From the NCBI RefSeq assembly GCF_020166345.1, contig NZ_JAIUJS010000001.1:372001-436000 (forward strand): a stretch of DNA of 64,000 bases. The letters are read 5' to 3'. The translations under genes and the position numbers were made by a program. Shown here piece after piece: positions 22,060-64,000 of the stretch; positions within the stretch are counted from its first letter, which is position 1; each line of letters begins with the position of its first letter. The notes under the pieces were generated by a model. It had not been told where the DNA came from and did no database searches. It was given only the letters and a program-made list of their open reading frames with translations. This DNA is from Winogradskyella vincentii. GTDB lineage: Bacteria; Bacteroidota; Bacteroidia; Flavobacteriales; Flavobacteriaceae.

Positions 22060-23811
22060 TTAATATTCAAGTTTATTCTCCTCATTTTTGCCAGAATACT
22101 TTACACTAAAATTTTGTGACTTTAAATCTGCTGTTAAATAAGCGTAGTGACCTTCATTATTCCAAGCTATAGATATTTCGGACTCAGAGGTTGCATTTAA
22201 TTTAATTTGCCCTTGAAAGGCCATATGATTGTTTCTTAGTCTTATTAATTCTAACTGATTCAAGACGGATTTTTTTTGTATTCCAAGCGCAACATTCTTA
22301 TTGCTTAAAGTAGTTCTATTTATTTCTTTATGACCTCCACTACCTGCCTTCTCTACTGCTTCATAATCATTCCTACCTTCAAATATATCTAAATACCATA
22401 TCTGAGGTATACCTGGCATAAACAACTGAATTGCTCTAGCCAATAGCATTTTTCTAGAATCTTCCCCTAGAGCACTAAAATAAGTTGCATTAATTTGGTA
22501 GTAGGAAATCTTTTTACCATCTGGTCCATACAGGTTTTTAACCTTTCCTCCTCTCTCAATAATCAAATCCATTAAGGACTCAATCTCAGAATCTTGCAAT
22601 AGGCCTTCATAATAACTTCCATCAATTTCCTTTCCCTTTAAATCCAAAACTGGAATTCCGTCATGACAACCCAACATATTTACCACATTGTAGCCATTAT
22701 TAACAATCTCATTTATCCATTTCAATAATGGTTTGTTTGTTTTACATTCTATAGTATGAATTAATAATCCTGGTAGAAAAAAATCATAAATCTGAAATCC
22801 TCGATCGGCTACTTCTTTATGTAATTTTGACCCATATTCAGCATGGATTTCTGGTAATAAGGTCAAATTATTGCTATCGGCTATTTTCTTAATTCGATCT
22901 AAATAGTGCCATGTTCCTGGATTATTGAAGAAATTTGATTCGCCAATAGCTTTGTGCAAATATGCAAAAGCATCTAATCTCAATATTTTACAACCAAACG
23001 TTTTTAATTTTGCCAAAGTTTCTTCATAAAACTGCCATACAAGTTCTGACTTGGCATTAACATCCATTTGACCTAGGTAACTCCTGTTTTTATTTAGTAT
23101 TTGAACTACAGACGGTTTGAATTTTTCAAACTCACCAAAATCGATATTTTCTAAATCTTCGGTATGCTTAAGACTTGTATTAACGAGATGGCATATAGAT
23201 TTTGCGGTATCCTGAGTTAACCCTTCAATTTGAATTAAATCATCATATTTTAAAGGATTATATGATACTTTCTGATAGAATGTATTCCAGTAAGGTTGCT
23301 CCGTACCGTCAGGAAAAACCACATTTAATATCGGAAGACCTGACTTTCTCATAAACAACTTGTCCAAATACTCTTTATTTGGGATGACAACACCATCTTC
23401 ATTCATTGCACCATGGTCTTGCCAAAACACATTCCAATTAATAAAAAAGTCCTTGTATTTTGACTGCGCACCATTTTTCAATAAATCTTTAAACTGTGGA
23501 GAAGCAACAGAAAGGTGATTTAATACTATGTCAAACTTTAAATCAATGTTGAGTTCTTTTAGATTCTTAAGATCCTCTTCGGTCACAAGGTCTTTATTTA
23601 AATTATAGTCTATAATTGAAAACCCTCTATCTAAATCACTATTGAAAAAAGTAGGTAAAACATAAAACAGGGAAAAAGCATCTTTAAACTCAGGCAGCTT
23701 CAACATTTTCACAATATCATTAAGAGCTTCACCGATACTGTCCGGATATGCATTAAGCATTACACCATTAAAATGAGATACTTCATTGATTTGGTTTTCT
23801 ATGTTGTTCAT
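22060..23811 (-). CDS. GH13_18 glycoside phosphorylase (sucrose/glucosylglycerol phosphorylase-like)
   Basis: GH13_18 enzymes split alpha-glucosides with phosphate to alpha-glucose-1-phosphate and the aglycone. Known substrates are sucrose, sucrose-6-phosphate, glucosylglycerol and glucosylglycerate. The 583-residue cytosolic protein carries DIVLNH, the nucleophile D280 in RLDAFAY, acid/base E321 in LLPEIH and H383-D384 in GCHDGIPV, the last being typical of phosphorylases. Compared with the roughly 500-residue sucrose phosphorylases it has about 65 extra residues between WNTFYQK (about 181) and SYLGQMD (about 250). Substrate is not readable from sequence; glycerol genes in the neighbouring block favour glucosylglycerol (inference). 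It is divergent from the SSS symporter gene. Confidence 0.82.
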   Translation of the reverse strand: MNNIENQINEVSHFNGVMLNAYPDSIGEALNDIVKMLKLPEFKDAFSLFYVLPTFFNSDLDRGFSIIDYNLNKDLVTEEDLKNLKELNIDLKFDIVLNHLSVASPQFKDLLKNGAQSKYKDFFINWNVFWQDHGAMNEDGVVIPNKEYLDKLFMRKSGLPILNVVFPDGTEQPYWNTFYQKVSYNPLKYDDLIQIEGLTQDTAKSICHLVNTSLKHTEDLENIDFGEFEKFKPSVVQILNKNRSYLGQMDVNAKSELVWQFYEETLAKLKTFGCKILRLDAFAYLHKAIGESNFFNNPGTWHYLDRIKKIADSNNLTLLPEIHAEYGSKLHKEVADRGFQIYDFFLPGLLIHTIECKTNKPLLKWINEIVNNGYNVVNMLGCHDGIPVLDLKGKEIDGSYYEGLLQDSEIESLMDLIIERGGKVKNLYGPDGKKISYYQINATYFSALGEDSRKMLLARAIQLFMPGIPQIWYLDIFEGRNDYEAVEKAGSGGHKEINRTTLSNKNVALGIQKKSVLNQLELIRLRNNHMAFQGQIKLNATSESEISIAWNNEGHYAYLTADLKSQNFSVKYSGKNEENKLEY

Positions 23812-24002
23812 AATACTGAAGTTAGTTTAGATTATAAATTTACAATTGATAACAATGGCATTGAACAAAAATTAGGTAAAACTATTTTAATTTTTAACGA
23901 AAAGCATTTCGTTCTTTTATTATTAATTCCTTTATGCAATTCACGATGCCTTAAATCGTTTTTTTATATATTGGTAAGCAATACTAACTAACTTATAAAT
24001 AA
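23812..24002. promoter_or_regulatory. Divergent promoter region, GH13_18 (-) and SSS symporter (+)
   Basis: This 190-bp AT-rich spacer must hold both promoters. TATATTGG near 23967-23974 is a weak -7 candidate for the symporter. No convincing repeat or operator was found. Confidence 0.4.
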
Positions 24003-25652
24003 ATGCTCTCAATTATCTCCTTTATTGGATTTACGGCACTTGTTGCTGTAATTGCATGGTATGCAACACGAAAAACAGATGAATCTTCAGCAGATGGTTT
24101 TTACTTGGCAGGTAGAAGCCTTGGAGCCCTAACGATAGCAGGTTCCTTGCTTTTAACCAACCTTTCTGCAGAACAGATTGTAGGGTTGAATGGATCTGCT
24201 TTTAAGGAGGGTCTTATGGTTATGGCTTGGGAAACTTTGGCTGCCATTGCCATAATTTTTGGAGCAATATTTTTATTACCAAAATATCTAGGTTCTGGGA
24301 TTACGACTATTCCTGAGTTTATTGAAACACGATTCGACAAACAAACCAAAGCTTTATTATCCTTATTATTCTTGATAGCATATACAATTGTTTTGCTACC
24401 AACTATACTTTATTCTGGTTCACTAGCTTTTAGTACCATGTTTGATTTGCCCGAGATGTTAGGGATGTCTCAAAATGGAGTCATTTGGATTTGCGTATGG
24501 AGTATTGGTATTATTGGTGTAATTTATGCAATTTTTGGTGGTTTAAAGGCAGTTGCAGTTTCCGATTTAATCAATGCAATAGGATTATTGGTTGGTGGAT
24601 TATTAATACCAATTTTTGGTTTGTTACTTATTGGAGACGGTAGTATTGGTGATGGTTTAAGCACCTTATTTAATAGCAATCCAGAAAAATTTAATGTGCG
24701 TGGTGCAGTAGATTCTTCGATACCATTCGGAACACTTTTCACAGGTATGATGCTAGCACAAATATATTATTGGGGCACAAACCAATCTATACTGCAACGT
24801 GTTTTTGCAGCAAAAAGCCTCAAAGAAGGTCAAAAAGGAATGCTACTTGCTGCATTTGTAAAATTCATAATCCCAATAGTGGTAGTATTACCTGGTATTA
24901 TTGCATGGCACGTTTTTGATGGCAACTTAGAAAACGCAGACCAAGCTTACCCAGCCCTCGTTAAAAAAGTATTACCAACAGCTTTTTTAGGCTTCTTTGC
25001 AGCTGTATTATTTGGTGCTGTTCTTAGCTCATTTAATAGCTTATTAAATAGTAGTGCTACTCTTTTTGGATTTGACTTATACAAACAATATTTTAAGAAA
25101 GATGCTACAGAGAAAGAAACAGTAAAAGCGGGAAAAAAATTCGGTTTAATTGTAGCTGCAATAGCAATGCTCATTGCGCCATTTATTGCAAATGCACCAG
25201 ATGGTTTATTTAGTTATATCCAACAATCTTTAGGTAGTTTAAGTGTACCTATTCTTGCAGTAGTGCTAGTTGGTGTTTATACCAAAAAAGTCCCTGCTAT
25301 AGGTGCGAAATTAGTCCTATCTGTGGGTGTAATTTTATACTTAATAAGCTTAATAGTCTTAGAACCCTATTTTAGAGGTGCCGCAGAAGTGCAAGCTATT
25401 GCAGATGGCATATCAAATGCTGGTGAAATAAGTATTATTAAAGCAAACGCCTACCCACATTACCTACACGTAATGGGAATATTGTTCGTACTTAATATTT
25501 TAGTTATGCTTTTACTTGGTAAAATAAAACCAAAGAAGGACGAGTATATTCCTAAGCAAACAGAAATTATTGATACTACACCATGGAAACATGCCATAAC
25601 CGTTAGTATAATAATCGCAATATTGGTTTTAACGACTTACTTTATTTTCTAA
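24003..25652 (+). CDS. Sodium:solute symporter (SSS family, SGLT-like)
   Basis: This 549-residue inner-membrane transporter has about 14 TM helices. The start WYATRKTDESSADGFYLAGRSLG, the SLLLTNLSAEQIVGLNGSAF sodium/substrate region, and GTNQSILQRVFAAKSLKEGQ are SGLT-type SSS motifs. It would take up a sugar or glycoside with Na+, matching a marine setting. It is 19 bp upstream of the GH13 glucosidase gene on the same strand, so uptake and cleavage are probably co-expressed. Substrate is inferred to be a small alpha-glucoside or glucose. Confidence 0.88.
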   Translation: MLSIISFIGFTALVAVIAWYATRKTDESSADGFYLAGRSLGALTIAGSLLLTNLSAEQIVGLNGSAFKEGLMVMAWETLAAIAIIFGAIFLLPKYLGSGITTIPEFIETRFDKQTKALLSLLFLIAYTIVLLPTILYSGSLAFSTMFDLPEMLGMSQNGVIWICVWSIGIIGVIYAIFGGLKAVAVSDLINAIGLLVGGLLIPIFGLLLIGDGSIGDGLSTLFNSNPEKFNVRGAVDSSIPFGTLFTGMMLAQIYYWGTNQSILQRVFAAKSLKEGQKGMLLAAFVKFIIPIVVVLPGIIAWHVFDGNLENADQAYPALVKKVLPTAFLGFFAAVLFGAVLSSFNSLLNSSATLFGFDLYKQYFKKDATEKETVKAGKKFGLIVAAIAMLIAPFIANAPDGLFSYIQQSLGSLSVPILAVVLVGVYTKKVPAIGAKLVLSVGVILYLISLIVLEPYFRGAAEVQAIADGISNAGEISIIKANAYPHYLHVMGILFVLNILVMLLLGKIKPKKDEYIPKQTEIIDTTPWKHAITVSIIIAILVLTTYFIF

Positions 25653-25671: not shown

Positions 25672-27333
25672 ATGAAAAAGACTTGGTGGAAAGAGGGTAT
25701 TGTCTATCAGATTTACCCTAGATCTTTTAATGACACTTCAGGAAATGGTTTAGGTGATATTCCAGGTATTACGGAAAAGCTTGATTATATAAAATCATTA
25801 GGTGTAGATATTATTTGGCTATGTCCGGTATATAAATCACCAAACGATGACAATGGGTATGATATATCTGATTATAGAGCTATATCTGAGGAATTTGGAG
25901 GTTCTAGTGCATTTGATGAGTTATTAGAAAAAATGCATGAAAAAGGGCTTAAACTAGTTATGGATCTAGTATTAAACCATAGTTCTGACGAACATGAGTG
26001 GTTCAAGGAATCTAGAAAATCTAAGGACAATCCCTACAGAGACTATTACTTCTGGAAACCGGCTAAAAATGATAAAGAACCAAATAATTGGATTTCATTT
26101 TTTAGCGGATCTGCTTGGCTAAAGGATGATATTACAGAGGAATACTTCTTACATCTCTTTACCAAAAAACAGCCCGATTTAAATTGGGAAAATCCTAAAG
26201 TACGGAAAGAAATACATGATATTGTAGAATTCTGGTGTAAAAAAGGAGTAGATGGTTTTAGAATGGATGTGATATCTCTTATTTCTAAACAACTTGATTT
26301 CCCAGATACCGAATATCCAAAAGACTACGGTAGAACTATAAAAAACTACTATGCTAACGGCCCACGTATTCATGAATACCTTAATGAGCTCAACAAAAAA
26401 GTATTGTCTAAATATGATATTATGACTGTTGGCGAAGGCCCTGGAATCGACTTGAGTAATGGGTTAGAATACGTGCATGAAGATAGAGATGAGCTCAACA
26501 TGATTTTTCATTTCGACCATATGTTTATTGATAATGGTGCAGGTGGTAAATACGACCCAATTGATGTACCTCTTCCAAAGTTTAAAAAAGTATTTAATGA
26601 TTGGGACAAAAAACTTAAGGACAAAGGATGGGGAAGTATATTTTTAGGAAATCATGATTTTTCTCGAATGGTTTCTCGGTTTGGGGATGATGGTTTTAAA
26701 CATCATGCTAATTCGGCAAAATTACTTGCCATGCTATTACTTACCATACGAGGTACAACATACATCTATCAAGGTGATGAAATAGGCATGACAAACGTTG
26801 CTTATCCATCTATAGACTACTATAATGATGTTGAAACTTTGGGCAGTTGGAAAGAAGCAGTTAAGAGAGGCGAAAACATGGATGAATTTTTAAAACTAGT
26901 TCATAGGCAAAGCCGAGATAATGCAAGAACACCAATGCAATGGAACAATAAAATAAATGCCGGATTTTCAGACTCCAATCCTTGGTTAAGGGTTAATCCA
27001 AATTATGAAAAAATAAATGTTGAAAATCAAGAAAATGACCCTAATTCTATATTGAATTTTTACAGAAAAATGATTGCAATTAGGAAGACTAATAATGTGC
27101 TAGTATATGGCGAATATATTTGCCTAAATGAAGCAGATGAGAATCTGTTTGTATACAAACGTTGGGATAAATCAGATCTCTATATAGTTCTCTTAAATTT
27201 CAGCGATGAAACTCAAACGACAGAACACATTGATACAGATATTAAAGCATCACATTTAGTTATTTCAAATTATAACCACAATCACTCTTTTATTAATCTA
27301 AGACCTTGGGAGGCTCAACTGAGAAAACTATGA
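25672..27333 (+). CDS. GH13 alpha-glucosidase (oligo-1,6-glucosidase type)
   Basis: This 553-residue cytosolic retaining glycoside hydrolase has the barrel motifs DLVLNHSSDEHEWF (about 98), the nucleophile D199 in GFRMDVIS, acid/base E255 in VGEGPG, and H328-D329 in GNHDFSRMVSRFG. Val200 after the nucleophile matches oligo-1,6-glucosidases, whereas maltases usually have Thr there. The QPDLNWENP motif is typical of the oligo-glucosidase group. Substrates could include isomaltose, sucrose, trehalose-like sugars or glucosylglycerol. Its stop codon abuts the stop of the convergent DUF1080 gene with no spacer. Confidence 0.87.
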   Translation: MKKTWWKEGIVYQIYPRSFNDTSGNGLGDIPGITEKLDYIKSLGVDIIWLCPVYKSPNDDNGYDISDYRAISEEFGGSSAFDELLEKMHEKGLKLVMDLVLNHSSDEHEWFKESRKSKDNPYRDYYFWKPAKNDKEPNNWISFFSGSAWLKDDITEEYFLHLFTKKQPDLNWENPKVRKEIHDIVEFWCKKGVDGFRMDVISLISKQLDFPDTEYPKDYGRTIKNYYANGPRIHEYLNELNKKVLSKYDIMTVGEGPGIDLSNGLEYVHEDRDELNMIFHFDHMFIDNGAGGKYDPIDVPLPKFKKVFNDWDKKLKDKGWGSIFLGNHDFSRMVSRFGDDGFKHHANSAKLLAMLLLTIRGTTYIYQGDEIGMTNVAYPSIDYYNDVETLGSWKEAVKRGENMDEFLKLVHRQSRDNARTPMQWNNKINAGFSDSNPWLRVNPNYEKINVENQENDPNSILNFYRKMIAIRKTNNVLVYGEYICLNEADENLFVYKRWDKSDLYIVLLNFSDETQTTEHIDTDIKASHLVISNYNHNHSFINLRPWEAQLRKL

Positions 27334-28083
27334 TTATAGCGCTTTGATCTTAATGTCTTTAAACCAAACCTTATCACTGTGGTCTTGCAGTCCTATGTGA
27401 CCGGTTTTATATTTTCCAAACCCTTCCCAGTCTTTGAATTTAGAATTTGCCACCATATTATCCCAGCCCTCTCCATGTAAAGGAAAATCCATGACTTGAG
27501 TACCATTCATTGATATTTTGGCAATATTTGCATCTTGATTAACTTCAATTACACAGAGGTTCCACTCTCCTGCAGAATTGATATGCTCATCAGGGCAACC
27601 AATCATATCATATAAAGAACCAGCTTTGTGTGTCCCATTTGCAACGAATGAATCAGGATGACGTTCATTATCTAAAACTTGAATTTCAGGGCCGGTCATA
27701 TAGGCCTCAGTGTATTTTTTATCTTCATGTACACCCCAGAAAATTCCACTATTTCCACCTTCTGAAACCTTCCATTCTAATGAGAGAATAAAATTAGTGT
27801 AAGTGTTTTTAGTGATTATATTTTTACCACCTTCTTTTCCTGGTGTAAAAGCCATAGCACCGTCTTCAATAACCCACTCTGGATACATATCTTCAGCCAA
27901 ATAGCCTCTCCACTGATCTAATGATGTTCCATCAAACAAAATTTCCCATTCATTTTCATTTTTTTCCATTTCTGTAATCTCTACGGTTTCTTCAACTGTT
28001 TCTTTTGTAGTTTTTGTACTGTCCTTACATTGCATTAGCCCAATTGATATTACACCTAATACTGCTATTAATTTAATTTTCAT
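27334..28083 (-). CDS. DUF1080 lipoprotein (3-keto-disaccharide hydrolase family)
   Basis: This 249-residue lipoprotein (lipobox GLMQCKD) holds one DUF1080 jelly-roll domain (about 42-249). Visible family text is WEILFDGTSLDQWRGY, FILSLEWKVSEGGNSGIFWG, GPEIQVLDNERHPD and the end IGLQDHSDKVWFKDIKIKAL. Family members act on glycosides whose C3 hydroxyl has been oxidised to a ketone. The neighbouring TIM-barrel isomerase (5 bp), Gfo/Idh/MocA oxidoreductase and GMC dehydrogenase fit a 3-keto-sugar pathway. It is periplasmic or outer-membrane bound. Confidence 0.85.
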   Translation of the reverse strand: MKIKLIAVLGVISIGLMQCKDSTKTTKETVEETVEITEMEKNENEWEILFDGTSLDQWRGYLAEDMYPEWVIEDGAMAFTPGKEGGKNIITKNTYTNFILSLEWKVSEGGNSGIFWGVHEDKKYTEAYMTGPEIQVLDNERHPDSFVANGTHKAGSLYDMIGCPDEHINSAGEWNLCVIEVNQDANIAKISMNGTQVMDFPLHGEGWDNMVANSKFKDWEGFGKYKTGHIGLQDHSDKVWFKDIKIKAL

Positions 28084-28088
28084 AGATT

Positions 28089-29147
28089 TTAATTTAATCC
28101 TAATATTTCTCTTAATTGATTTTCGTCTTTATCATCACCTCCGGCAAAATCATCAAATGATTTTGTTGTAGCCTCAATAATATGATCATTAATAAATTTA
28201 ACTCCTTCTCTTGCTCCTTGCTCAGGACTTTTTATCACACATTCCCATTCTAATACAGCCCAGACATCACATCCATATTCTGTTAATTTTGAAAATACAG
28301 ATTTAAAATCTATCTGGCCATCACCTGGAGAGCGATATCTGCCCGCTCTATCTTTCCAATCGTTGTAACCACCAAAAGCTCCTTTTTTACCTGTTGGTTT
28401 AAACTCTGAATCTTTAACATGAAAGGCTTTAATGAATTCATGATAATGATCTATATATTTTATATAATCTAGTTGTTGTAGAACAAAATGTGAAGGATCG
28501 TATAAGATACTCACACTCTCATGATTACCTGTCGCTTCTAAAAAACGTTCAAAAGTATCACCATCATGTATATCCTCAACAGGGTGTACTTCATAACATG
28601 CAGCAACTCCATTTTCTTTAAACACATCTAAAATTGGCAACCATCTATCGGCTAATTCCTTAAATCCTAGGTCTATTAATCCAGCTGGTTGTTGTGGCCA
28701 TGGATGCATAACTGGCCAAAGTAATGAACCAGAGAATGTTGCATGCGATGTTAAACCTAATTTATTGCTAACAACTGCAGCCTTTTTCATTTGATCTGTG
28801 GCCCATGCCGTACGCTCTTTGTACTTACCCTTTAAATTTTCAGGTGCAAAAACATCAAACATAATATCATGTGCAGGATGAACCGCAACCAACTGACCTT
28901 GAATATGCGTACTTAATTCTGTTATTTCTAATCCATAACTATTAATTCTGCCTTTAAATTCATCACAATATGTATCACTTTCTGCAGCAATATCTAAATC
29001 AATAATATGCTTATCTAGTGTGGGAATTTGTATGCCTTTATAACCCAAATCACTTGCCCATTTACATAAACCATCTAAGGTGTTAAAGGGTGGACTCTCA
29101 TCCATGAATTGAGCTAAAAAAATTGCCGGTCCTTTTATTGTTTTCAT
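28089..29147 (-). CDS. Sugar phosphate isomerase/epimerase family TIM barrel
   Basis: This 352-residue xylose-isomerase-like TIM barrel has no signal peptide. Metal-ligand positions typical of the family are visible: a Glu in ACYEVHPVEDIHDG, an Asp in SILYDPSHFVLQQ, a His in AFHVKDSEFK and a Glu in AVLEWECVIK. Such proteins isomerise or epimerise keto-sugars and inositols. The gene lies between Gfo/Idh/MocA (25 bp) and DUF1080 (5 bp) in one (-) operon. A role in handling 3-keto-glucose is an inference from this company. Confidence 0.85.
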   Translation of the reverse strand: MKTIKGPAIFLAQFMDESPPFNTLDGLCKWASDLGYKGIQIPTLDKHIIDLDIAAESDTYCDEFKGRINSYGLEITELSTHIQGQLVAVHPAHDIMFDVFAPENLKGKYKERTAWATDQMKKAAVVSNKLGLTSHATFSGSLLWPVMHPWPQQPAGLIDLGFKELADRWLPILDVFKENGVAACYEVHPVEDIHDGDTFERFLEATGNHESVSILYDPSHFVLQQLDYIKYIDHYHEFIKAFHVKDSEFKPTGKKGAFGGYNDWKDRAGRYRSPGDGQIDFKSVFSKLTEYGCDVWAVLEWECVIKSPEQGAREGVKFINDHIIEATTKSFDDFAGGDDKDENQLREILGLN

Positions 29148-29172
29148 TATCTAATATTCTTTTATCAATCTT

Positions 29173-30315
29173 TTAGGCAGTATCAATATTTACCCAAACA
29201 TTTCCTTGCTTATGAGATTCAACTGCTTTCTCAATAAAATTCATACCACGCAAACCATCAATGATTGTAGGGTATTCACCATGGTCATAATCTTCATTTC
29301 TAATCGCTTTGGCAACACCTTTGTATATATTACCCATTGAATCAAAAATACCTTCTGGGTGTCCAGGTGGTAATTTTGTGCCATCTAAAGAAAGATTGCT
29401 ATTATAGGTATGGCCAGGCTTTAAGACTCGCATAGGGCGACCATCTTCCAATAAATAGAGATAGTTTGGATTCTCTTGTTCCCATTTTAAGCCAGCTTTG
29501 TCGCCATATATTTGAACTGTAAAATTATTCTCTTCACCGGTTGCAATCTGACTTGCCCTAATCACTCCTTTAACATTTTCCTCAAATCTTATGAGTACGG
29601 TTCCATCAATATCCATTTGGTTATCTTCATATAAATAATTTAAGTCAGCTAAAATCGAATTAACTCTTAGTCCAGACATATATTCTACCATGTCAAACGC
29701 ATGAGTACCGATATCTCCAATACAACAGCTTATACCTGATTTTTCAGGATCCAGTCTCCAAGTAGACTTACGTTTTTCCTTATCATGAATTATGGGATTT
29801 ATCCATCCTTGATAATATTGTGCATCTATTTTTTGAATCTTTCCAATATCGCCATTTGCAATCATATGGCGCATTTGCCTTACCATAGGATATCCTGTAT
29901 AAGTATAGGTAACTGCAAATACAGTATTAGCCATTTTTAGAGTTTCATGAAGAATCTTAGCTTCTTCATAAGTAGTTGTCATTGGTTTTTCACAAATGAC
30001 ATTGAACCCATTTTCAAGAAGTTTCTTCGCCATTGGGAAATGGAGAAAATTAGGTGTAAGAATTGATACAACTTCAATTCGTTTATCCTTTGGTAGTTTT
30101 AATTCTTCTTCAATTAAAGTATCTAAATCTTTGTATACTTGGTCAGTTGGGATTCCAATTTCTCTAGCAAAATTTAAACTTTCCTCAAGCTTAACATTAA
30201 ACACACCACCAACCAACTGAAACTTATCATACATTGATGAGGCAACACGATGCAAAACACCAATTAAGGAATCTCCTCCTCCACCTAAAATACCAAGTCT
30301 AATTTTATTACTCAT
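29173..30315 (-). CDS. Gfo/Idh/MocA family oxidoreductase
   Basis: This 380-residue NAD(P)-dependent sugar or inositol dehydrogenase-like protein has an N-terminal Rossmann fold (RLGILGGGGDSLIGVLHRVA), the family EKPMTTTYEEAK motif at about 110, and GISCCIGDIGTHAFDMVEYM in the catalytic domain (about 195), holding the D...H pair. The C-terminal half is the alpha/beta Gfo/Idh domain. There is no export signal. In 3-keto-sugar operons these enzymes reduce or oxidise the C3 position; the precise substrate is unknown. It is 5 bp from the MFS gene upstream in the operon. Confidence 0.88.
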   Translation of the reverse strand: MSNKIRLGILGGGGDSLIGVLHRVASSMYDKFQLVGGVFNVKLEESLNFAREIGIPTDQVYKDLDTLIEEELKLPKDKRIEVVSILTPNFLHFPMAKKLLENGFNVICEKPMTTTYEEAKILHETLKMANTVFAVTYTYTGYPMVRQMRHMIANGDIGKIQKIDAQYYQGWINPIIHDKEKRKSTWRLDPEKSGISCCIGDIGTHAFDMVEYMSGLRVNSILADLNYLYEDNQMDIDGTVLIRFEENVKGVIRASQIATGEENNFTVQIYGDKAGLKWEQENPNYLYLLEDGRPMRVLKPGHTYNSNLSLDGTKLPPGHPEGIFDSMGNIYKGVAKAIRNEDYDHGEYPTIIDGLRGMNFIEKAVESHKQGNVWVNIDTA

Positions 30316-30320
30316 TAAAT

Positions 30321-31553: not shown

Positions 31554-31565
31554 TTAATTTTTAGT

Positions 31566-32522: not shown

Positions 32523-32613
32523 TAACTGATTATTAGAATTAAGAAATGAAAATAACCAATTAAGGATGTATTTCTGTTTATTTTTATTCAGTGAAAGAAT
32601 TTATACAAACAAA

Positions 32614-33657: not shown

Positions 33658-33793
33658 TGAAATATTTTAAACAAATATAACTTGTAAATTAACTAATTTT
33701 CTTTTTTCAAAAAATATTTTTGATGTTTTCTGAGCATTCCATAATATTATTAAACTATTTTTATGAATTCGTCTTTTATACTAAACTAACAAT
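33658..33793. promoter_or_regulatory. Divergent promoter region, AraC (-) and GMC dehydrogenase (+)
   Basis: On the (-) strand TATATTTG (33679-33672) fits the -7 consensus and lies 14 bp before the AraC start. For the (+) gene only a weak TATTTTTA element is seen. This 136-bp AT-rich spacer is a plausible AraC target. Confidence 0.42.
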
Positions 33794-35506: not shown

Positions 35507-35519
35507 AAATATCAGAATC

Positions 35520-36158: not shown

Positions 36159-36174
36159 AATCAAATATTTAGTA

Positions 36175-55653: not shown

Positions 55654-56225
55654 TACTGCTTTCTTAATTTATTATATCTATACTCCATATCTTCAATAAC
55701 CACTGAGACATCCTTATCAGATTCTTGCTTTAGTCTTATTTGTCTATTGCCATCTACCTTAACCAAAACATCTTTAACCTTAATAAAATCATTTCCTGGA
55801 TACCACTTTAACAAGGTATCTTTTACTTTGGGCAACAATTGATCGGCTTGCAAATCTTTATTCCAAGGTGCCCAAGCAACATGTGAGAACTTAACATCCA
55901 TGGCAATAATCTCTTCTTCTTTATTGAATTTCGCATAAAACAACATTCTTATTTTCCCTTTTACATCAGTAGTATCCTTTGGATGCAAAATAGCCTGTAC
56001 ATAATTATTGCTTGGACCATGAGTGAATATTTTCTTTCTATTATATTCCCAACAGGCATTATAAAACTCTGTCTTAGTTTGACCAAACTTAAAACTGTAG
56101 AATATTGAATCATTTCGAACACCGCTTGTCAGTTCATCTTCAACGAGTGAATTATATTCTGATTGGCATGCTACTAAAAAAATAATTGAAAAAAGTAATG
56201 CTGACTTACAAACTCTTAACCTCAT
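55653..56225 (-). CDS. Hypothetical lipoprotein between FG-GAP paralogues
   Basis: This 190-residue lipoprotein (LFSIIFLVACQSEYN) belongs to no family I can name. After the lipobox it has a mixed alpha/beta domain with FSFKFGQTKTEFYNACWEYN, IRMLFYAKFNKEEEIIAMDV, KVKDTLLKWYPGNDF and a Lys/Arg-rich end (EDMEYRYNKLRKQ). The FG-Q-KTEFYN pattern could be a small sensor or scaffold fold. It lies 11 bp after paralogue 3 and shares a base with the start of paralogue 2, so it belongs to the same surface assembly. Confidence 0.65.
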   Translation of the reverse strand: MRLRVCKSALLFSIIFLVACQSEYNSLVEDELTSGVRNDSIFYSFKFGQTKTEFYNACWEYNRKKIFTHGPSNNYVQAILHPKDTTDVKGKIRMLFYAKFNKEEEIIAMDVKFSHVAWAPWNKDLQADQLLPKVKDTLLKWYPGNDFIKVKDVLVKVDGNRQIRLKQESDKDVSVVIEDMEYRYNKLRKQ

Positions 56226-56236: not shown

Positions 56237-59200
56237 TTAATTTTCTACTTTATAAAATTGTAAACTATCATTATTTATCGATGCAATCAACATGATTTCA
56301 TCCTTTATATTTTCAACATGAAAGTCTCTAATCTGACCATCAATTTTTAGAGAAATTACCTTATTAAAATTGTTGCTTGAGTCTCCATAAAGCAACCATC
56401 CTTTTGACGCATCATCTATACCAAACTGAGGTTTAACCAAGAATTGATTTCCCCCAAATAATATATCTAAAACTCCATCTTTATCAACATCTATTGTCTC
56501 AATGGCTGACACATTAGAGTATTGAATTTCATTAGGTAATTTTTGACTTACAAATGTCTCATTTTTATTTAAAAAAATCACTGTATTTAGCATTTTAACA
56601 TCTAAAATTTTTGCCTTTTTTAACTGATCTTTTGAAAAAATAGATTCAATAGTTGCACCTGAATAATCTTTGTAATACAATAGCTTTTGCTTTAGACTTG
56701 CTAACTGTGCAACTAACTCGTCTCTATCTACTATAGGATAGTAATTATCATCTCGTTTTTGACAAATAATTTGCTCAATTGTACCATTATTATCAAAATC
56801 TGCCAAATACATTCTCATACCTGGTTTATAGAATGAATTTTCTCCTTTATTACCTGCTATAATATCTAGTTTACCATCATTATCTAAATCCTTAACCTCT
56901 ATGGTTTTCCACAGTCCTGAAGTATCCGATAACCCATAGGCTTCAGTCTCATTAACTAACTGGCCATTATTATTGATGAAAATTGAAATTGGCATCCACT
57001 CTCCTGCAATGATTAAATCTTTGACACCATCACTGTTGATATCTGCCCAATGCGAATCTGTAATCAAACCAATATCTTTGAGACCTTCTGGCTGTTGGAC
57101 TTCAAAATCATTATTACCCTTATTTTCTAATATATATCCAGAGGTTGGAATTCCATAAACATTTACCTTAAATCGTTCACCTATAAACAAATCGATATCA
57201 CCATCACCATCATAATCAGAAACAGAAACTGTAGAGGTACTGATTGGTACAGGAAACTTTAAAGATTCTAAGTTCAATTTAAAATTACCATTGCCTTCAT
57301 TTATATATAACCTATCGTTTAGTGCATAGTCAAATTTAGAAAACGATTTCCCACCACTTGTAACATATAAATCTAGATCACCATCGTTATCACTATCAAA
57401 AAATACAGCATCGGTATCTTCAGAATTTATGTTTAGCTGAAAAGGCTTTGTAAGTTGGTCATAACTACCATCATCATTTGATAAATATATTGTCCCTACT
57501 TGACCTTTTGCACCACCAATATAAAAGTCTACTATATTGTCTTTGTTTACATCTGCTCTTGCGATTTTTGGTCCTTCATTATTACACATTTCTGGCAATA
57601 ACTGTTCTTTATTAAAATCTACTGTGTTATTTTCTTTGTGTTTAAATTGAAAAAGACTTTCAATTAGATGAATTATTGGATTATCATCATTAACTAGGTC
57701 AGTAGCTTCTATATATGAGGTCTCTTCGTTTTGGTCAAACACATAAGAATCTTTTGTTTTAAGATTCAGTTTTTTGCTTCTAGCTCCGTTTGGCCATGTA
57801 ATAATAAGGCTATCAATTGAATCATAAGTACTTGTTCCAAGTTGTAATTGGTATGATATTGAACTCTGAAATCCTCTAGAAGGAAAATTTTCTAAACTTC
57901 CATATTTGTCGCCACCATAGTAGATTTCCACTTTTGCACCAACAGCAAATGTATTTTTATCTGCTCCTTTTAATGCAATAGTAATACTTTTATTAGTGGA
58001 AGTATCTATTGTATTTTCATATATAAAGGCTGGCATATTTACATTATTGACAACCAAATCTAGATCTCCATCATTATCTATATCGCCATATGCACTGCCA
58101 TTACTGAAACTAGGAGTATCAAATCCCCATTTTGAAGTCATCTCTACAAACTGAAACTCACCTTCATTTTTAAATGATGCATTTGGAACTGCCTGAGAAG
58201 GCATTAAATCCACCAATTTATTCATTATCTCACCATCAGTCTTAATCATATCCCTAATCTTATCTTCATTAGCCATATAGATTAAATAGTCTCTATCTAA
58301 AAGATCCTTATAGATACCGTTACTGATAAAAATATCTTTTAACCCGTCATTATCAGCATCAAATAATAATGAGGCCCAACTCCATTCTGAAGCCGCAACA
58401 TTAGACAACCTACTAATCTCAAAAAAACTATTGTTCCCCATATTTCTATGAAGCGCATTTCTTGAAAATTGCTGATGATAGCCTTTATTTTTAGCCATAT
58501 CATACTTATTCCAAGACTCAAAGATGGTTTTTGTGCGTTGTCTTTCAATAGTTCTCGGTAACATTTCGGTTACCATAATATCTGAAAATGAATCGTTATT
58601 CAAATCGGCCGCATCAGCACCCATTGAACCCATGGAAATAGAACCAAATTGATTGGTTAAATCTTCTTTAAATGTACCGTCTTGGTTATTGATATATAAA
58701 TAATCGCGTTCAAAAAAGTCATTAGAAATAAATATATCTGGCCAAGTATCATTGTTATAATCACTTACGGTTATACCCAAGCCAAAACCAATGGCACTAG
58801 AATATATATTGGATTCTTCGGTAACATCTACAAAAATATTATCATCATTTCTCAACAACTTGTTACCTGATTCGGTTGGAGTATTTCTTTGATCTTTCAC
58901 AAAATCAAAATTGCCTACGGCTTTTATAGAATTATTTAATAAATAAACATCTAAATCCCCATCCTTATCATAATCAAAAAAATTTGCCTGTACACCGAGA
59001 CCAACTATATCAAGACCGTAATCTTTAGATTTTTCAGTAAAGGTTAAATCACCATTATTAATAAACAACTCATTGTGTCTATTTGAAATATCACTTGGTG
59101 GGCCAGCTTTACAAACATAAATATCAAGCAAACCATCATTATTAATATCAATAAATGACACACCTGACGACCAAACACCTTTACTAGAAACTCCAGCCTT

Positions 59201-59506
59201 AGAAGTTATATCTTCAAATTGCCAGTTGCCTTTATTTAAATATAACTGATTATCTACTAGATTACCTGTGAAGTAAATATCTAATAATCCATCGTTATTA
59301 ATATCACCTAATGCAACACCACCACCATTAAAAAAATTTCTGTAAGTATATGGGTTTAATGCTTCTGTATATTCCAGTGCATTATTAAATGTTATACCTG
59401 TAGTGGCACTATCTTTTAATTGAAATAAGCTAGGAGATTCGTCTTTTTCGGAGTTGCATGAACACGAAATAACTGCAACAAATAAGAGAATAAACAAGTT
59501 TTTCAT
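56237..59506 (-). CDS. FG-GAP/UnbV (CRTAC1-like) surface lipoprotein 3
   Basis: This 1089-residue lipoprotein (FVAVISCSCNSEK) is first in transcription order after SusD. FG-GAP repeats include GDINNDGLLDIYFTG, DINNDGLLDIYVCK, DYDKDGDLDVYLLNN and DYNNDTWPDIFISNDFFERD. The UnbV domain lies around 545-605 (SRGFQSSISYQLQLG and ITWPNGARSKK). The second repeat block ends DVDKDGVLDILFGGNQFLV. A stem-loop terminator (59531-59562) separates it from SusD, so its expression may be lower than that of SusCD. Outer-membrane surface exposure is inferred. Confidence 0.87.
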   Translation of the reverse strand: MKNLFILLFVAVISCSCNSEKDESPSLFQLKDSATTGITFNNALEYTEALNPYTYRNFFNGGGVALGDINNDGLLDIYFTGNLVDNQLYLNKGNWQFEDITSKAGVSSKGVWSSGVSFIDINNDGLLDIYVCKAGPPSDISNRHNELFINNGDLTFTEKSKDYGLDIVGLGVQANFFDYDKDGDLDVYLLNNSIKAVGNFDFVKDQRNTPTESGNKLLRNDDNIFVDVTEESNIYSSAIGFGLGITVSDYNNDTWPDIFISNDFFERDYLYINNQDGTFKEDLTNQFGSISMGSMGADAADLNNDSFSDIMVTEMLPRTIERQRTKTIFESWNKYDMAKNKGYHQQFSRNALHRNMGNNSFFEISRLSNVAASEWSWASLLFDADNDGLKDIFISNGIYKDLLDRDYLIYMANEDKIRDMIKTDGEIMNKLVDLMPSQAVPNASFKNEGEFQFVEMTSKWGFDTPSFSNGSAYGDIDNDGDLDLVVNNVNMPAFIYENTIDTSTNKSITIALKGADKNTFAVGAKVEIYYGGDKYGSLENFPSRGFQSSISYQLQLGTSTYDSIDSLIITWPNGARSKKLNLKTKDSYVFDQNEETSYIEATDLVNDDNPIIHLIESLFQFKHKENNTVDFNKEQLLPEMCNNEGPKIARADVNKDNIVDFYIGGAKGQVGTIYLSNDDGSYDQLTKPFQLNINSEDTDAVFFDSDNDGDLDLYVTSGGKSFSKFDYALNDRLYINEGNGNFKLNLESLKFPVPISTSTVSVSDYDGDGDIDLFIGERFKVNVYGIPTSGYILENKGNNDFEVQQPEGLKDIGLITDSHWADINSDGVKDLIIAGEWMPISIFINNNGQLVNETEAYGLSDTSGLWKTIEVKDLDNDGKLDIIAGNKGENSFYKPGMRMYLADFDNNGTIEQIICQKRDDNYYPIVDRDELVAQLASLKQKLLYYKDYSGATIESIFSKDQLKKAKILDVKMLNTVIFLNKNETFVSQKLPNEIQYSNVSAIETIDVDKDGVLDILFGGNQFLVKPQFGIDDASKGWLLYGDSSNNFNKVISLKIDGQIRDFHVENIKDEIMLIASINNDSLQFYKVEN

Positions 59507-59589: not shown

Positions 59590-61209
59590 TTAATAACCAG
59601 GGTTTTGCGTTAACGTTCCACCACTAGCTTCAATTTGTTCTTGAGGGATTGGCATTACAGTTCTAAATGCATCACTGTTAGTTTTTTCCCACCATGAATC
59701 TCCCCATTTTCCGAATCTGATCAAGTCAGTTCTTCTACTAGATTCTTGGAACATTTCTTTTCCTCTTTCATCGAAGAAACCGTCAGCATCGATTGACGCT
59801 AATGGAGAAAGACCAGCTCTAGCTCTAATAGTATTTACATCTGGTAATGCCATATTCCAGTTACCAGCATTTCTTGCCATTGCTTCAGCTCTCATTAAGT
59901 ACACATCTCCTAAACGTACGATTGGATAATCATTGTTCATATCTGGTCTACCAAATAATTGGAAACTGAACTTTTTAGCTCTTACACCACTCTGTCTAAC
60001 AGAGTTAGGTTCTAGCTCACTAATTTCAGGTGTATACTCAACAACAATTGTTGGGTCATCAGAAGCATAGTCTAATAAATCAGCACCATCAAAATCAGTT
60101 TGTGGTCCTGCCAAGAAGTTAGCTTCTTTTCTTAAATCTCCATTATCATAGCTGTTATAGAATTCTTCTAAAACTTGGTAACCATTCCATGGTTGTGCAT
60201 CTAATGCAAAAGTTTGCTGAGAACTATAATGTAAGTTCATCTGAGAAAAATTCATTCCTCCAGCATTTGACTCATCATAGTATATAGACCAAATCATTTC
60301 AGGGTTGAACTGATTGTTTGGTGCAAAAACTGCAGCGTATCCTGAAAGTTGATCAGGGTCTGAAGCAACATTTGGACGCTTTGCAAGATTTAATACTGAA
60401 CAACCATCTTCACATAACTGGTAAGGACCATTGTCTATAATATAACTCGCGGCCCACATAGCTTCATCCCATCTTGCTGTACCAGTATAAACCTCAGCAT
60501 TTAAATAAAGCTTAGCTAATACACCTAATGCAGCAAATTGATTAACAATATATGGTTCTGAACCAGTACCTAAATCACTACCAGATAAATCCATACTTGC
60601 TGTAACAGCTGGTATACCTAAGGCGTCTAATAATTCTTGCTCAACAAAATCAAATACGGCAGTACGCTCTGATTGCGGAGCATCCGAACCAGAAGAGGTA
60701 ATAAGTTTTACTCTTCCATATAAATCTAACAATCTCCAATAGAAGAATGCTCTAATAGTTTTGGCTTGTGCAGCTTCACCTGGAGATAAAGCTGACTCTA
60801 ATGCAAGATTAGTTTCTGCAATACCACCATAGGCATCAACCCAGGTTCCGTTAAGTGGTCCATTTGAAGAATTCACAGTATGTCTGTGCATATCTAACCA
60901 AATACCACCATCAAACCAGTCACCACCTTTTTGGCCAATTGCCATCTCATCAGAAGAAACTGTTTGTACTGAATAGTAACTACCGTGACCAGCCGAACCG
61001 TTTCTTAGTCTACCATATGCCGCTGCTAATGCCCCTGAAGGGAAAACACCACCTGCCGTCTCACCAGAGTTGTCTGGTACACCGTCATCAGAAAATTCAG
61101 TTGATAACTCATCTTCTAATACTTCTTCTAGATCTGTACAGGTGTAAAACATCATAGATATCACACCCAGAAATAATAATAAGAATTTTTTCATTTTTTT
61201 CATTTTCAA
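59590..61209 (-). CDS. susD: SusD/RagB-family glycan-binding lipoprotein
   Basis: This 539-residue outer-membrane lipoprotein acts as the lid that captures a glycan for its SusC partner. The lipobox is MMFYTCTDLEE (Cys about 24). The SusD TPR text is AKTIRAFFYWRLLDLYGRVKLIT, with the N-terminal substrate-cap region before it. The C-terminal SusD motif is YPIVRLGDVYLMRAEAMARNAG with VNTIRARAGLSPL and RGKEMFQESSRRTDLIRFGKWG. Three Met codons cluster at the start (MKMKKMKK), and the third is also possible. It follows susC by 6 bp. Confidence 0.93.
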   Translation of the reverse strand: MKMKKMKKFLLLFLGVISMMFYTCTDLEEVLEDELSTEFSDDGVPDNSGETAGGVFPSGALAAAYGRLRNGSAGHGSYYSVQTVSSDEMAIGQKGGDWFDGGIWLDMHRHTVNSSNGPLNGTWVDAYGGIAETNLALESALSPGEAAQAKTIRAFFYWRLLDLYGRVKLITSSGSDAPQSERTAVFDFVEQELLDALGIPAVTASMDLSGSDLGTGSEPYIVNQFAALGVLAKLYLNAEVYTGTARWDEAMWAASYIIDNGPYQLCEDGCSVLNLAKRPNVASDPDQLSGYAAVFAPNNQFNPEMIWSIYYDESNAGGMNFSQMNLHYSSQQTFALDAQPWNGYQVLEEFYNSYDNGDLRKEANFLAGPQTDFDGADLLDYASDDPTIVVEYTPEISELEPNSVRQSGVRAKKFSFQLFGRPDMNNDYPIVRLGDVYLMRAEAMARNAGNWNMALPDVNTIRARAGLSPLASIDADGFFDERGKEMFQESSRRTDLIRFGKWGDSWWEKTNSDAFRTVMPIPQEQIEASGGTLTQNPGY

Positions 61210-61215
61210 TTTTTA

Positions 61216-64000
61216 TTAAAATTTAACATTTAAGCCCAGTGTAATAGTACGATTCTGGAAATAATTGTAACGTCTGTCAATACCAGGAGCCAAAACTTCT
61301 GGATTGCCCGTATTACCACCGTTATCCACAGCTCCAAGATCTTGGAATGCTGGTTCTGGGTCAGCACCTGTGTAATCAGTGATAGTAAATAAGTTCTGTG
61401 CTGTTAAAGACACCCTTGCACTCTTAATGAACGAATCATCATTTAAATCAAAGTTGTACCCAACAGTTAAGTTGTCTAATCTTAAGAAATCTGCTTTCTC
61501 AACATAATAAGAACTGAACTGAGCAGTTCTAATATCGTCTCTAGCTAAATCAGTGTTAACATAGTTGTACGACGACTGAGATCCAATTCTTGGCTCATAA
61601 AATACTCTAAACGTATTCACCATACTATGACCAAACGCACCTCTAAAGAAGGCATTTACATCCCAGTTACCAAACTGTACTTGATGTGTCCAACCGATTT
61701 CCCAATCCGGAAAACCTTGACCTAGTACTTTGAAGTCACCATCTTCTGCAAGCGCAGAACCTTGATCCGCAACTACATTTCCGTCACCATTAATATCTGC
61801 AAGAATAGGAGTTCCATTAGCATCAACTTCGCCTGTAAATACAGGTCCCCAAATTTGACCAATTTCGTCACCTTCTCTTACAAGAATTACTTCCGTATCA
61901 TTTTGCCCTGGAGCACCTAAGTTAGCAATCGTTCTATCTCCACCAACATTCTTTTCAAGAACAGTCTCATAGGTAGAAGCAACAAGTCCCATATTATACT
62001 TAACTCTGTCGTTTCTTACAATATCATAATTAACTGTCAACTCAAATCCTTTAGTATTTAACTCACCAGAGTTTTGAAACTGAGAAGTAAATCCGTTGTT
62101 AGAAGCTGCATCAATTTGAACCGAGGTAATAAAGTCGACAATATCTCTGTTATATAAATCCACTGTAGCAGATAATCTGTCCATTGCGAATTCAATACCG
62201 AAATTAAGCTCTCTTTTTTCCTCCCATTTTAAATCTGGGTTAGCAAGTCTTGTACCAATACCTGTAGAAGATGATCCGAAACCACCAGCACCATTTGTTA
62301 CATTAAATGTTGTTTGTGATAAACCTACTCCTGGAGGAATAGCTCCTGTTACACCGTATCCTAAACGTGCTTTTAACAAGGACACATTATCTAATTGAAG
62401 ATAATTATTTAAATCTGCACCAACTGCTACAGACGGGAATGTACCCCATTGATTGTCCTCACCAAAACGACTTGATCCTTCACGTCTTAGAGATGCAGTT
62501 AAATAAATAGCGTCATCAAAAGTAAAGTTTCCTCTTAAGAAGAATGCAATAATTCTATCATCGTCATTTCTTCCACTATTAGCAATCACCCTACCTGCTT
62601 CGTTTAAATCTTGAGATACCTCAATTGCATTACTAAAATCAAAATCTACACCTGGAGGAAAATCTCCAACTTGTAAATAATTCTCATTAAAATCATTTTC
62701 TTGGAAAGAATAACCACCATCTAACTTCATTCTAAAGAAATCATTAAATGTCTTATTATATGTACCAAATAATTCTAAAGTCTTAGTTCTTGCCTCATTA
62801 CTGTAGAAATCAGCTCTACCTTTTCTGAAAGGACTTACAGCACCTCCTCTAAAGAATGCAGTCGTTGGGTAATATTGATTATTATCTGTTCTAGAGACTT
62901 GTTGCCCAACATTTAATGTTGCTGTTAAGTCGTCCGTAATTGAATATCTGAAATCTGCATTATAATTAATGGTCGTCGTAGCACCAGCATTTCTATTTTG
63001 TTCAGCAATTGAAACTGGGTTAAAACTGTCAAATAAACCAAGAGTTTCGAAATATCCACCAAACTGATCTGAGTTAAATGCAAAAGGTGCATCGTCACCA
63101 AATACAGGAGCAGTAGGGTTATAAACTATTGCATAACGTAATGCTTCGTTAAATCCAAAATCACTATCTCTCTGCGTAAATGCAGAGTTGAAATTAATTC
63201 TTAATTTATCATTAAACAGTCTACCAGTAAAGTTACCTCTAACATTCAATTGCTCAAAACCAGAATTAAGTAAAATACCCTCAGTATCTCTGTAGTTTAC
63301 TGCAACCCTGTAGTTAGTATTCTCCGCACCACCAGACATTGCAATGTTGTGAACTTGAGAAAAAGCAGATCTTGTTACCTCGTCTACCCAGTCTGTATCG
63401 CTTCCTAAATCTGTTCCACCAGTTGCAAGGAATTGTCCACGATCCATTATTTCTACTTCATTAATTGCATCAGAAACACCATACTGTCCATTATACTCAA
63501 CTGAGAATGGCTGGTTGCTTTTACCAGATTTTGTGGTAACTAAGATTACACCACTCGATGCTCTTGAACCATAAATCGCTGCTGCAGAACCGTCTTTTAA
63601 TACAGTAATATTTTTAATATCACTTGGATCCACATTGTTTAAGGACTGTCCTAAAACACCATCAATTACTACCAAAGGTTCGGTGTTACCACCAACAGTA
63701 GAAAGACCTCTAAGTCTAATTATACCATTGTCATTTGGGTTACCACCTTTGTTGTAAACCGAAAGTCCGGCTACTTTACCTTGTAATAACTGAGATGCAT
63801 TGTTTATCACACCCTTGTTAAATTCTTCTTCACTAACACTTGTTACAGCGGTGGTGATTTCTTTTCTGACCTGATTACCGTATCCTACAACAACTACAGC
63901 TTCTAATTGAGCAACATCTTCTTCAAGAGTCACATCAATTACAGAGCGACCGTTTACAGCTATCTCTTGGGTTTTAAATCCAAGGTAACTAAAAACAAGT
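61216..64000 (-). CDS. susC: SusC/RagA-family TonB-linked outer-membrane transporter (cut at right edge)
   Basis: The frame is open to the window end and lacks its N-terminal signal and most of the CarboxypepD-regulatory domain. The visible first residues are LVFSYLGFKTQEIAVNGRSV, followed by VVVVGYGNQVRKE, the SusC TonB-box-like and plug entry. The plug has GLSVYNKGGNPNDNGIIRLR, VLKDGSAAAIYGSRASSGVI and the family end VVIDGVLGQSLNNV. The beta-barrel closes with the NYFQNRTITLGLNVKF end. It transports the ligand bound by SusD across the outer membrane. Only about 930 residues are visible; a full SusC is about 1000-1050. Confidence 0.94.
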   Translation of the reverse strand, partial: LVFSYLGFKTQEIAVNGRSVIDVTLEEDVAQLEAVVVVGYGNQVRKEITTAVTSVSEEEFNKGVINNASQLLQGKVAGLSVYNKGGNPNDNGIIRLRGLSTVGGNTEPLVVIDGVLGQSLNNVDPSDIKNITVLKDGSAAAIYGSRASSGVILVTTKSGKSNQPFSVEYNGQYGVSDAINEVEIMDRGQFLATGGTDLGSDTDWVDEVTRSAFSQVHNIAMSGGAENTNYRVAVNYRDTEGILLNSGFEQLNVRGNFTGRLFNDKLRINFNSAFTQRDSDFGFNEALRYAIVYNPTAPVFGDDAPFAFNSDQFGGYFETLGLFDSFNPVSIAEQNRNAGATTTINYNADFRYSITDDLTATLNVGQQVSRTDNNQYYPTTAFFRGGAVSPFRKGRADFYSNEARTKTLELFGTYNKTFNDFFRMKLDGGYSFQENDFNENYLQVGDFPPGVDFDFSNAIEVSQDLNEAGRVIANSGRNDDDRIIAFFLRGNFTFDDAIYLTASLRREGSSRFGEDNQWGTFPSVAVGADLNNYLQLDNVSLLKARLGYGVTGAIPPGVGLSQTTFNVTNGAGGFGSSSTGIGTRLANPDLKWEEKRELNFGIEFAMDRLSATVDLYNRDIVDFITSVQIDAASNNGFTSQFQNSGELNTKGFELTVNYDIVRNDRVKYNMGLVASTYETVLEKNVGGDRTIANLGAPGQNDTEVILVREGDEIGQIWGPVFTGEVDANGTPILADINGDGNVVADQGSALAEDGDFKVLGQGFPDWEIGWTHQVQFGNWDVNAFFRGAFGHSMVNTFRVFYEPRIGSQSSYNYVNTDLARDDIRTAQFSSYYVEKADFLRLDNLTVGYNFDLNDDSFIKSARVSLTAQNLFTITDYTGADPEPAFQDLGAVDNGGNTGNPEVLAPGIDRRYNYFQNRTITLGLNVKF

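Follow-up and report, generated by a model that had tools for sequence, protein, structure and literature searches.

A 64,000-nucleotide stretch of the Winogradskyella vincentii genome (the window: contig NZ_JAIUJS010000001.1, positions 372,001 to 436,000, or G000:C11:372001-436000 in our numbering; genome size 3.29 Mb) carries an island of carbohydrate genes that is probably a locus for the utilization of sucrose and trehalose. In the predicted pathway, sucrose would be phosphorylated by a kinase and the product cleaved by a sucrose-6F-phosphate phosphorylase (SPP). Genes were matched by Pfam and NCBIfam profiles, with signals and lipoboxes judged by eye, and the comparisons covered 249 genomes of the family (the window's included) and 68 genomes of the genus, 8 of them trehalase-bearing. 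The genes on which this reading turns are as follows.

22060..23811, minus strand: GH13_18 protein, predicted strict SPP (6s9u match, ten conserved residues)
47148..47783, minus strand: 211-aa P-loop kinase, predicted sucrose 6F-kinase (homologue of the AgaSK kinase domain)
45708..47036, minus strand: SUC-type sucrose/H+ symporter-like carrier of the major facilitator superfamily (MFS) (TIGR01301; SUC1, 8bb6)
44463..45695, minus strand: MFS carrier b
42620..44473, minus strand: neutral trehalase with a Ca-binding domain, no signal seen by eye
41443..42606, minus strand: MFS carrier a

The GH13_18 protein scores 673 bits against the SPP of Ilumatobacter coccineus (IcSPP; 6s9u) as against 210 bits for a glucosylglycerol phosphorylase (7xdr). 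It is identical to IcSPP at 297 of 502 positions (59%) and keeps all ten named residues of that enzyme (R152, D223, E264, D327, K364, K373, Y376, Y377, Q378, and K434). The marks of a strict SPP (Arg152, Lys364, and Lys434) and the three catalytic acids are present, and loop A (KISYYQINAT) has the YYQ motif and Lys373 of the strict SPP clade. A clade with YYQ and the loop A lysine, Flavobacteriia included, is described as strictly active on sucrose-6F-phosphate (PMC6720575); by all ten named residues the window protein falls in this clade, and activity on sucrose-6F-phosphate is predicted for it. Unlike IcSPP, the protein carries a stretch of about 53 additional residues (184-236) that separates the two parts of the alignment. 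Split SPP matches that skip this stretch were also seen in five family genomes (G044, G155, G159, G226, and G227). Two other identities were considered for the GH13_18 protein and rejected: in loop A, a VGA motif is given as the mark of glucosylglycerol phosphorylases and Glu in place of Gln as that of glucosylglycerate phosphorylases (PMC6720575), and the window protein lacks VGA and has Gln439 (a position read from the alignment), not Glu.

A source for the SPP substrate is suggested by the 211-aa kinase, which has a Walker A motif (GGESGSGKT) and whose size fits the AgaSK kinase domain (about 210 residues; residues 724-935 in RgSK, PMC7688924). Its Pfam matches are weak, and its closest named relatives are from Winogradskyella sp. 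KYW1333 (88% identical) and W. alexanderae (74%). A tblastn search against plasmids matched it to the C-terminal domain of an alpha-galactosidase of Agathobacter rectalis (30.5%, 1e-10), whose gene is followed directly by gtfA; the gtfA product is 53% identical to the window SPP (query residues 242-573), and we take this pair to be the AgaSK arrangement. The E. rectale enzyme is reported to be more than 90% identical to RgAgaSK, and the isolated RgSK domain to phosphorylate sucrose (PMC7688924); another paper argues for a pairing of SPP with a kinase domain (PMC6521584). When nine genomes were searched with the AgaSK domain, the 211-aa kinase was the top match in all seven that bear it, with other P-loop kinases ranking behind.

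The nearest known counterpart is the Rgaga1 locus of Ruminococcus gnavus (AgaSK plus RgSPP), which likewise combines a sucrose kinase independent of the phosphotransferase system (PTS) with a strict SPP. The kinases are homologous (31% over 190 positions, in a comparison with the Agathobacter copy), and the SPPs share loop A residues. In contrast to Rgaga1, the window kinase is free-standing rather than fused to a GH36 domain, and the island has SusCD and a SUC-type MFS carrier in place of an ABC transporter, together with trehalase, haloperoxidase, and FG-GAP proteins. A literature search, at catalogue level beyond the papers cited here, found no account of how SPP-bearing Flavobacteriia make sucrose-6F-phosphate; the island offers a testable source, an AgaSK-like kinase encoded as a separate protein, the alternative being a PfkB kinase (below).

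The surroundings of the kinase point in the same direction. Among 13 named loci, the kinase gene lies directly before the SUC-type carrier gene in 11 and is separated from it by one gene in the other 2; a trehalase gene follows the pair in 11 of the 13, the contigs of the remaining two ending first. (Several records carry both a G and an L designation, namely L066=G284, L067=G249, L069=G304, L070=G302, L072=G232, and L078=G156, and the named-locus and genus counts overlap.) The window trehalase matches PF01204 (440.7 bits) and PF07492; among solved structures it comes nearest to a neutral trehalase (558 bits; the best periplasmic enzyme scores 142). It resembles this neutral enzyme (5n6n/5jta, which we take to be yeast Nth1) in its catalytic and Ca-binding domains, and differs from 5jta in lacking about 98 N-terminal residues and in being bacterial and encoded in an operon. 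The SUC-type carrier scores 101.7 bits against TIGR01301, below the cutoff of 511, and its best solved relative is SUC1 (8bb6, 69 bits); by sequence it is SUC-like, short of the score that TIGR01301 membership calls for.

Kinase, SUC-type carrier, trehalase, and SPP genes occur in one island in five genus genomes, the window's included, the distance between kinase and SPP being about 23 kb in the window genome; a Seonamhaeicola metagenome-assembled genome (L071) also carries these two, 9 kb from each other. Across the family, SPP is present in 26 of 249 genomes (window's included) and trehalase relatives (E<=1e-100) in 42. Nine genomes have both: seven with the genes within 6 kb of each other, the window genome with the genes within 21 kb, and one with the genes on separate contigs.

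A second kind of kinase accompanies SPP elsewhere. The neighborhood of SPP was examined in 12 of the 25 non-window family genomes that have it, and a PfkB kinase gene (about 303-319 aa) adjoins SPP in 11 of these, mostly with a SUC gene close by. The same holds for G303, so that 12 of 13 SPP loci without a nearby 211-aa kinase have an adjoining PfkB; in the twelfth family genome (G206) a relative of the SPP-adjoining PfkB lies elsewhere, beside a trehalase gene. These PfkB genes were recognized by position and by 23-26% matches to the window genome's own PfkB, only some having been compared with one another. The five genus genomes that combine kinase and SPP contain no close relatives of them, yielding only matches below 30% (none at 1e-10 in G279). 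No 211-aa kinase was found within the 60 kb examined around the G303 locus. We read the 211-aa kinase and the PfkB kinase as alternatives feeding SPP.

Several observations weigh against the sucrose-kinase interpretation. The kinase, SPP, and other activities are predicted from sequence and context; in the window genome the SPP and trehalase genes belong to different units some 20 kb apart, and their co-expression is assumed. The 211-aa kinase resembles uridine kinases (TIGR00235, 43.7 bits; cutoff 220), and a genome that lacks it (G157) gives an AgaSK match of 2.6e-6, as good as that of the weakest true kinase (3.9e-6). In a tree of 14 kinase sequences (L075, L077, the truncated G088 copy, and G279 left out), AgaSK sits on a long branch and its place is not settled. 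Five of the six loci with both kinase and SPP belong to one genus and are not independent, and among the 249 family genomes a strong kinase match and SPP occur together only in the window genome. Several kinase loci carry a GH100 invertase-like gene instead of SPP, and L073 and L076 have no sucrose-splitting partner within the 20 kb examined. The two kinases are not strictly exclusive, since G156 has both, and the SPP-adjoining PfkB could be a fructokinase.

One alternative holds that the 211-aa kinase is a fructokinase, glucokinase, or nucleoside kinase, with sucrose split by GH32 or GH100 and SPP fed in some other way. The uridine-kinase-like profile matches, the position of AgaSK in the tree, and the GH100 partner genes in several loci are consistent with it. 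The top rank of the kinase among AgaSK-domain matches in seven of seven genomes argues against it, as do the absence of the SPP-adjoining PfkB from five genus genomes and the need of the SPP clade for sucrose-6F-phosphate, as described in PMC6720575; we regard this alternative as possible, though doubtful. A GH100 invertase-like gene near the kinase, with no SPP seen, was recorded at L032, L035, L037, L038, L074, and L104; the protein of these loci is possibly a sucrose-6-phosphate hydrolase.

In the sucrose and trehalose pathway that we prefer, SusCD would move the sugars across the outer membrane, and the SUC-type and neighboring MFS carriers, to judge by family and context, would carry both sugars on into the cytosol. 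The 211-aa kinase would phosphorylate sucrose at C6 of fructose, as its homology to a proven sucrose kinase and its context suggest, and the GH13_18 protein, by its clade and residues, would convert sucrose-6F-phosphate to glucose-1-phosphate and fructose-6-phosphate. Trehalose would be cleaved in the cytosol by the signal-less neutral trehalase. An exported GH32, a sugar porter, and a fructokinase-like PfkB may form a second, hydrolytic route for sucrose, and a 3-keto-glycoside module, partly exported according to its signals, may oxidize further glucosides.

The island consists of three units, A (22060-27333), B (27334-36969), and C (from 64206 down to 36972), and extends about 5 kb beyond the window edge. 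Unit C is closely packed, with gaps of -11 to 19 bp save for two of 111 and 83 bp. A scan of the window beyond position 20000 for a Bacteroidota promoter pattern found one match per strand, neither of them just upstream of a unit C gene. Broadly, and with gains and losses, the A-B-C order with the same neighbors is found again in four further genomes of the genus (G284, G249, G304, and G279), which indicates that the block is not due to chance. The island of G304 has one extra GH13 gene; the G279 variant has a distant SusCD (33% and 26%), no MGH1-like gene, and an AP_endonuc_2 gene at the place of the second 3-keto hydrolase. The first-pass annotation had treated these genes as a single block, a view that the conserved order bears out, and every gene that it listed (SusC/SusD, SUC and other MFS carriers, the sodium:solute symporter [SSS], both GH13 proteins, trehalase, the MGH1-like hydrolase, GlpD, and GlpK) is present by Pfam and NCBIfam profiles; it had overlooked the 3-keto-glycoside unit, the 211-aa kinase, the vanadium haloperoxidase, and the three FG-GAP/ASPIC lipoproteins.

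The distal part of unit C encodes proteins of the outer side.

61216..64000 in the window, minus strand: SusC (truncated at the window edge; the complete gene spans 61216-64206)
59590..61209, minus strand: SusD
56237..59506, minus strand: FG-GAP/ASPIC lipoprotein 1 (lipobox by eye)
55653..56225, minus strand: 190-aa lipoprotein, no family match (lipobox by eye)
52369..55653, minus strand: FG-GAP/ASPIC lipoprotein 2, whose model matches CRTAC1
49143..52367, minus strand: FG-GAP/ASPIC lipoprotein 3 (lipobox by eye)
47789..49126, minus strand: vanadium-dependent haloperoxidase-type lipoprotein (4cit, 707 bits)

With a SusC-SusD pair, carbohydrate enzymes, and a regulator, the island has the composition of a SusCD-type utilization locus; with regard to carbon cycling in the sea, it suggests a type of SusCD locus directed at disaccharides rather than polysaccharides. 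Vanadium haloperoxidases are a family associated with halogen chemistry. The window protein aligns with 4cit over 436 residues and shares its site motifs, and the motifs K..RP, SGH, and SRxYGGIH, to which we ascribe a role in vanadate binding, are kept in all 15 aligned homologues, one of them from Gemmatimonadota (the alignment comprised 15 sequences from loci with the gene in view, the G279 copy being left out). The product is likely a halogen-oxidizing enzyme, on the strength of these sequence features. Unlike 4cit/4usz, which we take to be the iodoperoxidase of Zobellia galactanivorans, it is encoded inside a sucrose/trehalose SusCD operon.

The predicted structure of FG-GAP lipoprotein 2 (mean pLDDT 77) matches CRTAC1 (9etn; Z 40.9, root-mean-square deviation 2.4, 456 aligned residues) and also the propellers of aldos-2-ulose dehydratase; these matches of a model indicate likeness of fold and show no function. 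On a plasmid of Gemmatirosa (Gemmatimonadota), a single 24.5-kb stretch encodes relatives of SusC, SusD, FG-GAP, haloperoxidase, kinase, GH100, and SUC proteins, along with a weak relative of the trehalase (29%). On the outer side, the haloperoxidase and the FG-GAP lipoproteins recur from locus to locus, and the haloperoxidase is a surprising component of a disaccharide locus; a literature search on SusCD loci with FG-GAP or haloperoxidase genes gave no match. The haloperoxidase gene recurs in disaccharide operons of Flavobacteriaceae and on one Gemmatimonadota plasmid. A more far-reaching proposal, which we consider speculative and rather unlikely, is that SusCD, the three CRTAC1-like FG-GAP lipoproteins, and the haloperoxidase make up a single conserved assembly in the outer membrane that handles small alpha-glucosides, with halide oxidation as a working part, and that on the inner side a PTS-free route of sucrose kinase and SPP uses two unrelated, interchangeable kinases (P-loop or PfkB). 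Halide oxidation in such an assembly may, for example, strip or modify decorated sucrose or trehalose compounds or guard the uptake site.

Beyond the window edge, adjoining SusC, lie a LacI gene (plus strand) and then genes for the fructokinase-like PfkB, the GH32 (which by eye has a lipoprotein signal), and the sugar porter (minus strand). This group would fit a fructan (levan or inulin) locus, in which the exported GH32 trims the polymer, SusCD imports fructo-oligosaccharides, PfkB acts on fructose, and the trehalase is incidental. Such a locus is unlikely, because the G279 island has SusCD, kinase, SUC, and trehalase genes, yet no GH32 was found within the 60 kb examined there, and because in all 13 named loci no more than one gene separates SUC from the kinase, the trehalase following in 11 of them.

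Unit B resembles the LacABC-DUF1080 lactose pathway of Caulobacter: alongside the dehydrogenase it encodes DUF1080 hydrolases, a reductase, a transporter, and two proteins resembling epimerases. It differs in having an AraC-type regulator. LacA of Caulobacter is a GMC protein. Among the window genes of unit B, no third dehydrogenase component was seen. The unit comprises the following.

27334..28083, minus strand: 3-keto-disaccharide hydrolase, lipoprotein (PF06439; lipobox by eye)
28089..29147, minus strand: AP_endonuc_2 sugar isomerase/epimerase
29173..30315, minus strand: Gfo/Idh/MocA sugar dehydrogenase/reductase
30321..31553, minus strand: nucleoside-permease-like MFS carrier (PF03825)
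31566..32522, minus strand: AP_endonuc_2 lipoprotein (signal by eye)
32614..33657, minus strand: AraC-type regulator
33794..35506, plus strand: GMC oxidoreductase, candidate large subunit of a glycoside 3-dehydrogenase
35520..36158, plus strand: small subunit like gluconate 2-dehydrogenase subunit 3, with a signal resembling that for twin-arginine translocation, by eye (PF13618)
36175..36969, plus strand: second 3-keto-disaccharide hydrolase, lipoprotein (PF06439; start moved from 36010; lipobox by eye)

A comparable set is described as serving lactose and other glycosides in Caulobacter (PMC9007349), and with a GMC protein, a PF13618 subunit, two PF06439 hydrolases, two AP_endonuc_2 proteins, a reductase, and a transporter in the island, 3-keto-glycoside oxidation rather than the kinase and SPP could be the main disaccharide path. 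This too appears improbable: GMC relatives (E<=1e-200) occur in 140 of the 249 family genomes, window's included, beyond the genomes with trehalase or SPP, which marks unit B as a common module not specific to the island, and the unit has its own AraC-type regulator.

The proximal end of unit C carries two glycerol genes and a putative hydrolase.

36972..38459, minus strand: GlpK glycerol kinase, single copy
38466..40040, minus strand: GlpD glycerol-3-phosphate dehydrogenase
40044..41423, minus strand: exported MGH1-like hydrolase of the GH63 clan (PF22422, PF03200; signal by eye)

GlpD-GlpK follow the trehalase operon in seven of the eight trehalase-bearing genus genomes, G303 being the exception; in the window the gaps at the two genes are 3 and 6 bp. 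Overall, GlpK is present in 29 of 68 genus genomes, comprising all 8 with trehalase and 21 of the 60 others (Fisher p 6e-4, uncorrected for kinship; the genomes are of sister species and not independent). Away from trehalase, GlpD-GlpK lie with a MIP-like gene in G157, G276, G303, and G314 (one of these genes checked by profile) and in G285 beside neither. A chance placement of the pair in the window genome was rejected, as it is conserved in a clade of the genus. The first-pass annotation had stated that a glycerol facilitator is lacking, and a search of the whole assembly agrees, the only MIP match being aquaporin Z (385 bits, cutoff 256). GlpD-GlpK without a glycerol facilitator are thus a real and clade-conserved feature, one that the sucrose and trehalose pathway leaves unexplained, and with the link to the trehalase operon in seven of eight genomes a glycerol-yielding substrate remains conceivable.

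The glycerol link of the clade is independent of the MGH1-like gene. Twelve other family genomes have matches to this gene at E<=1e-20, and in six the match is full length, at about 70%; GlpD, GlpK, and trehalase are all missing beside it in 11 of the 11 other family loci examined (neighborhoods in 11 of the 12 genomes, two on contigs shorter than 10 kb). Within the genus, the gene is intact in three of the seven loci that keep GlpD-GlpK (G000, the window; G249; and G304) and broken or absent in four, being a 114-codon fragment in G284 and missing from the interval between carrier and GlpD in G279, G302, and G290. A conserved glycerol-glycoside cassette of GH63, GlpD, and GlpK was rejected in view of these unlinked genes. 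The MGH1-like protein scores 22 bits against the glucosylglycerate hydrolase model NF047898 (cutoff 550), and its structure model has a mean pLDDT of 39.5, from a three-sequence alignment.

The first-pass annotation had placed glucosylglycerol first among its proposed substrates, ahead of trehalose and sucrose. The latter two are well supported by the conserved context and the enzyme family, and the association of GlpD-GlpK with the trehalase operon is real; glucosylglycerol itself does not hold up as the headline substrate. Its import, with glycerol freed by the GH13_18 protein or the MGH1-like hydrolase for GlpK and GlpD, would account for the GlpK counts, the position of GlpD-GlpK, and the missing facilitator, and the MGH1 clan does include osmolyte hydrolases, such as that of NF047898; it is most unlikely, given that the GH13_18 protein lies in the SPP clade, outside that of glucosylglycerol phosphorylases, that the MGH1-like gene is unlinked or broken as described, and that GlpD-GlpK occur in none of the four kinase loci outside the genus whose downstream side is visible (L071, L073, L076, and L078).

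Two further genes of unit A complete the island.

24003..25652, plus strand: SSS-type Na+/sugar symporter (PF00474; sodium/glucose cotransporter 2xq2, 228 bits)
25672..27333, plus strand: GH13 alpha-glucosidase of the oligo-1,6-glucosidase/phosphotrehalase group (9u7v, 679 bits)

The alpha-glucosidase scores below the cutoff of the TreC equivalog and above that of the PRK10933 subfamily.

A putative integrative element of about 28 kb lies between coaX and SPP (window 1-21885; C11:365447 to 393885). It encodes a tyrosine recombinase (20546-21835) and a Piwi-domain protein (584-1948), and its cargo includes RND and P-type ATPase genes resembling those for metal efflux and a MerT-like gene. Direct repeats of 27 bp, with a single mismatch, bound the element; a fuzzy search allowing up to six changes did not find this repeat between coaX and SPP in three relatives, and no clean empty site was seen. 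SPP has a coaX-like gene as its immediate neighbor in G249 and G279.

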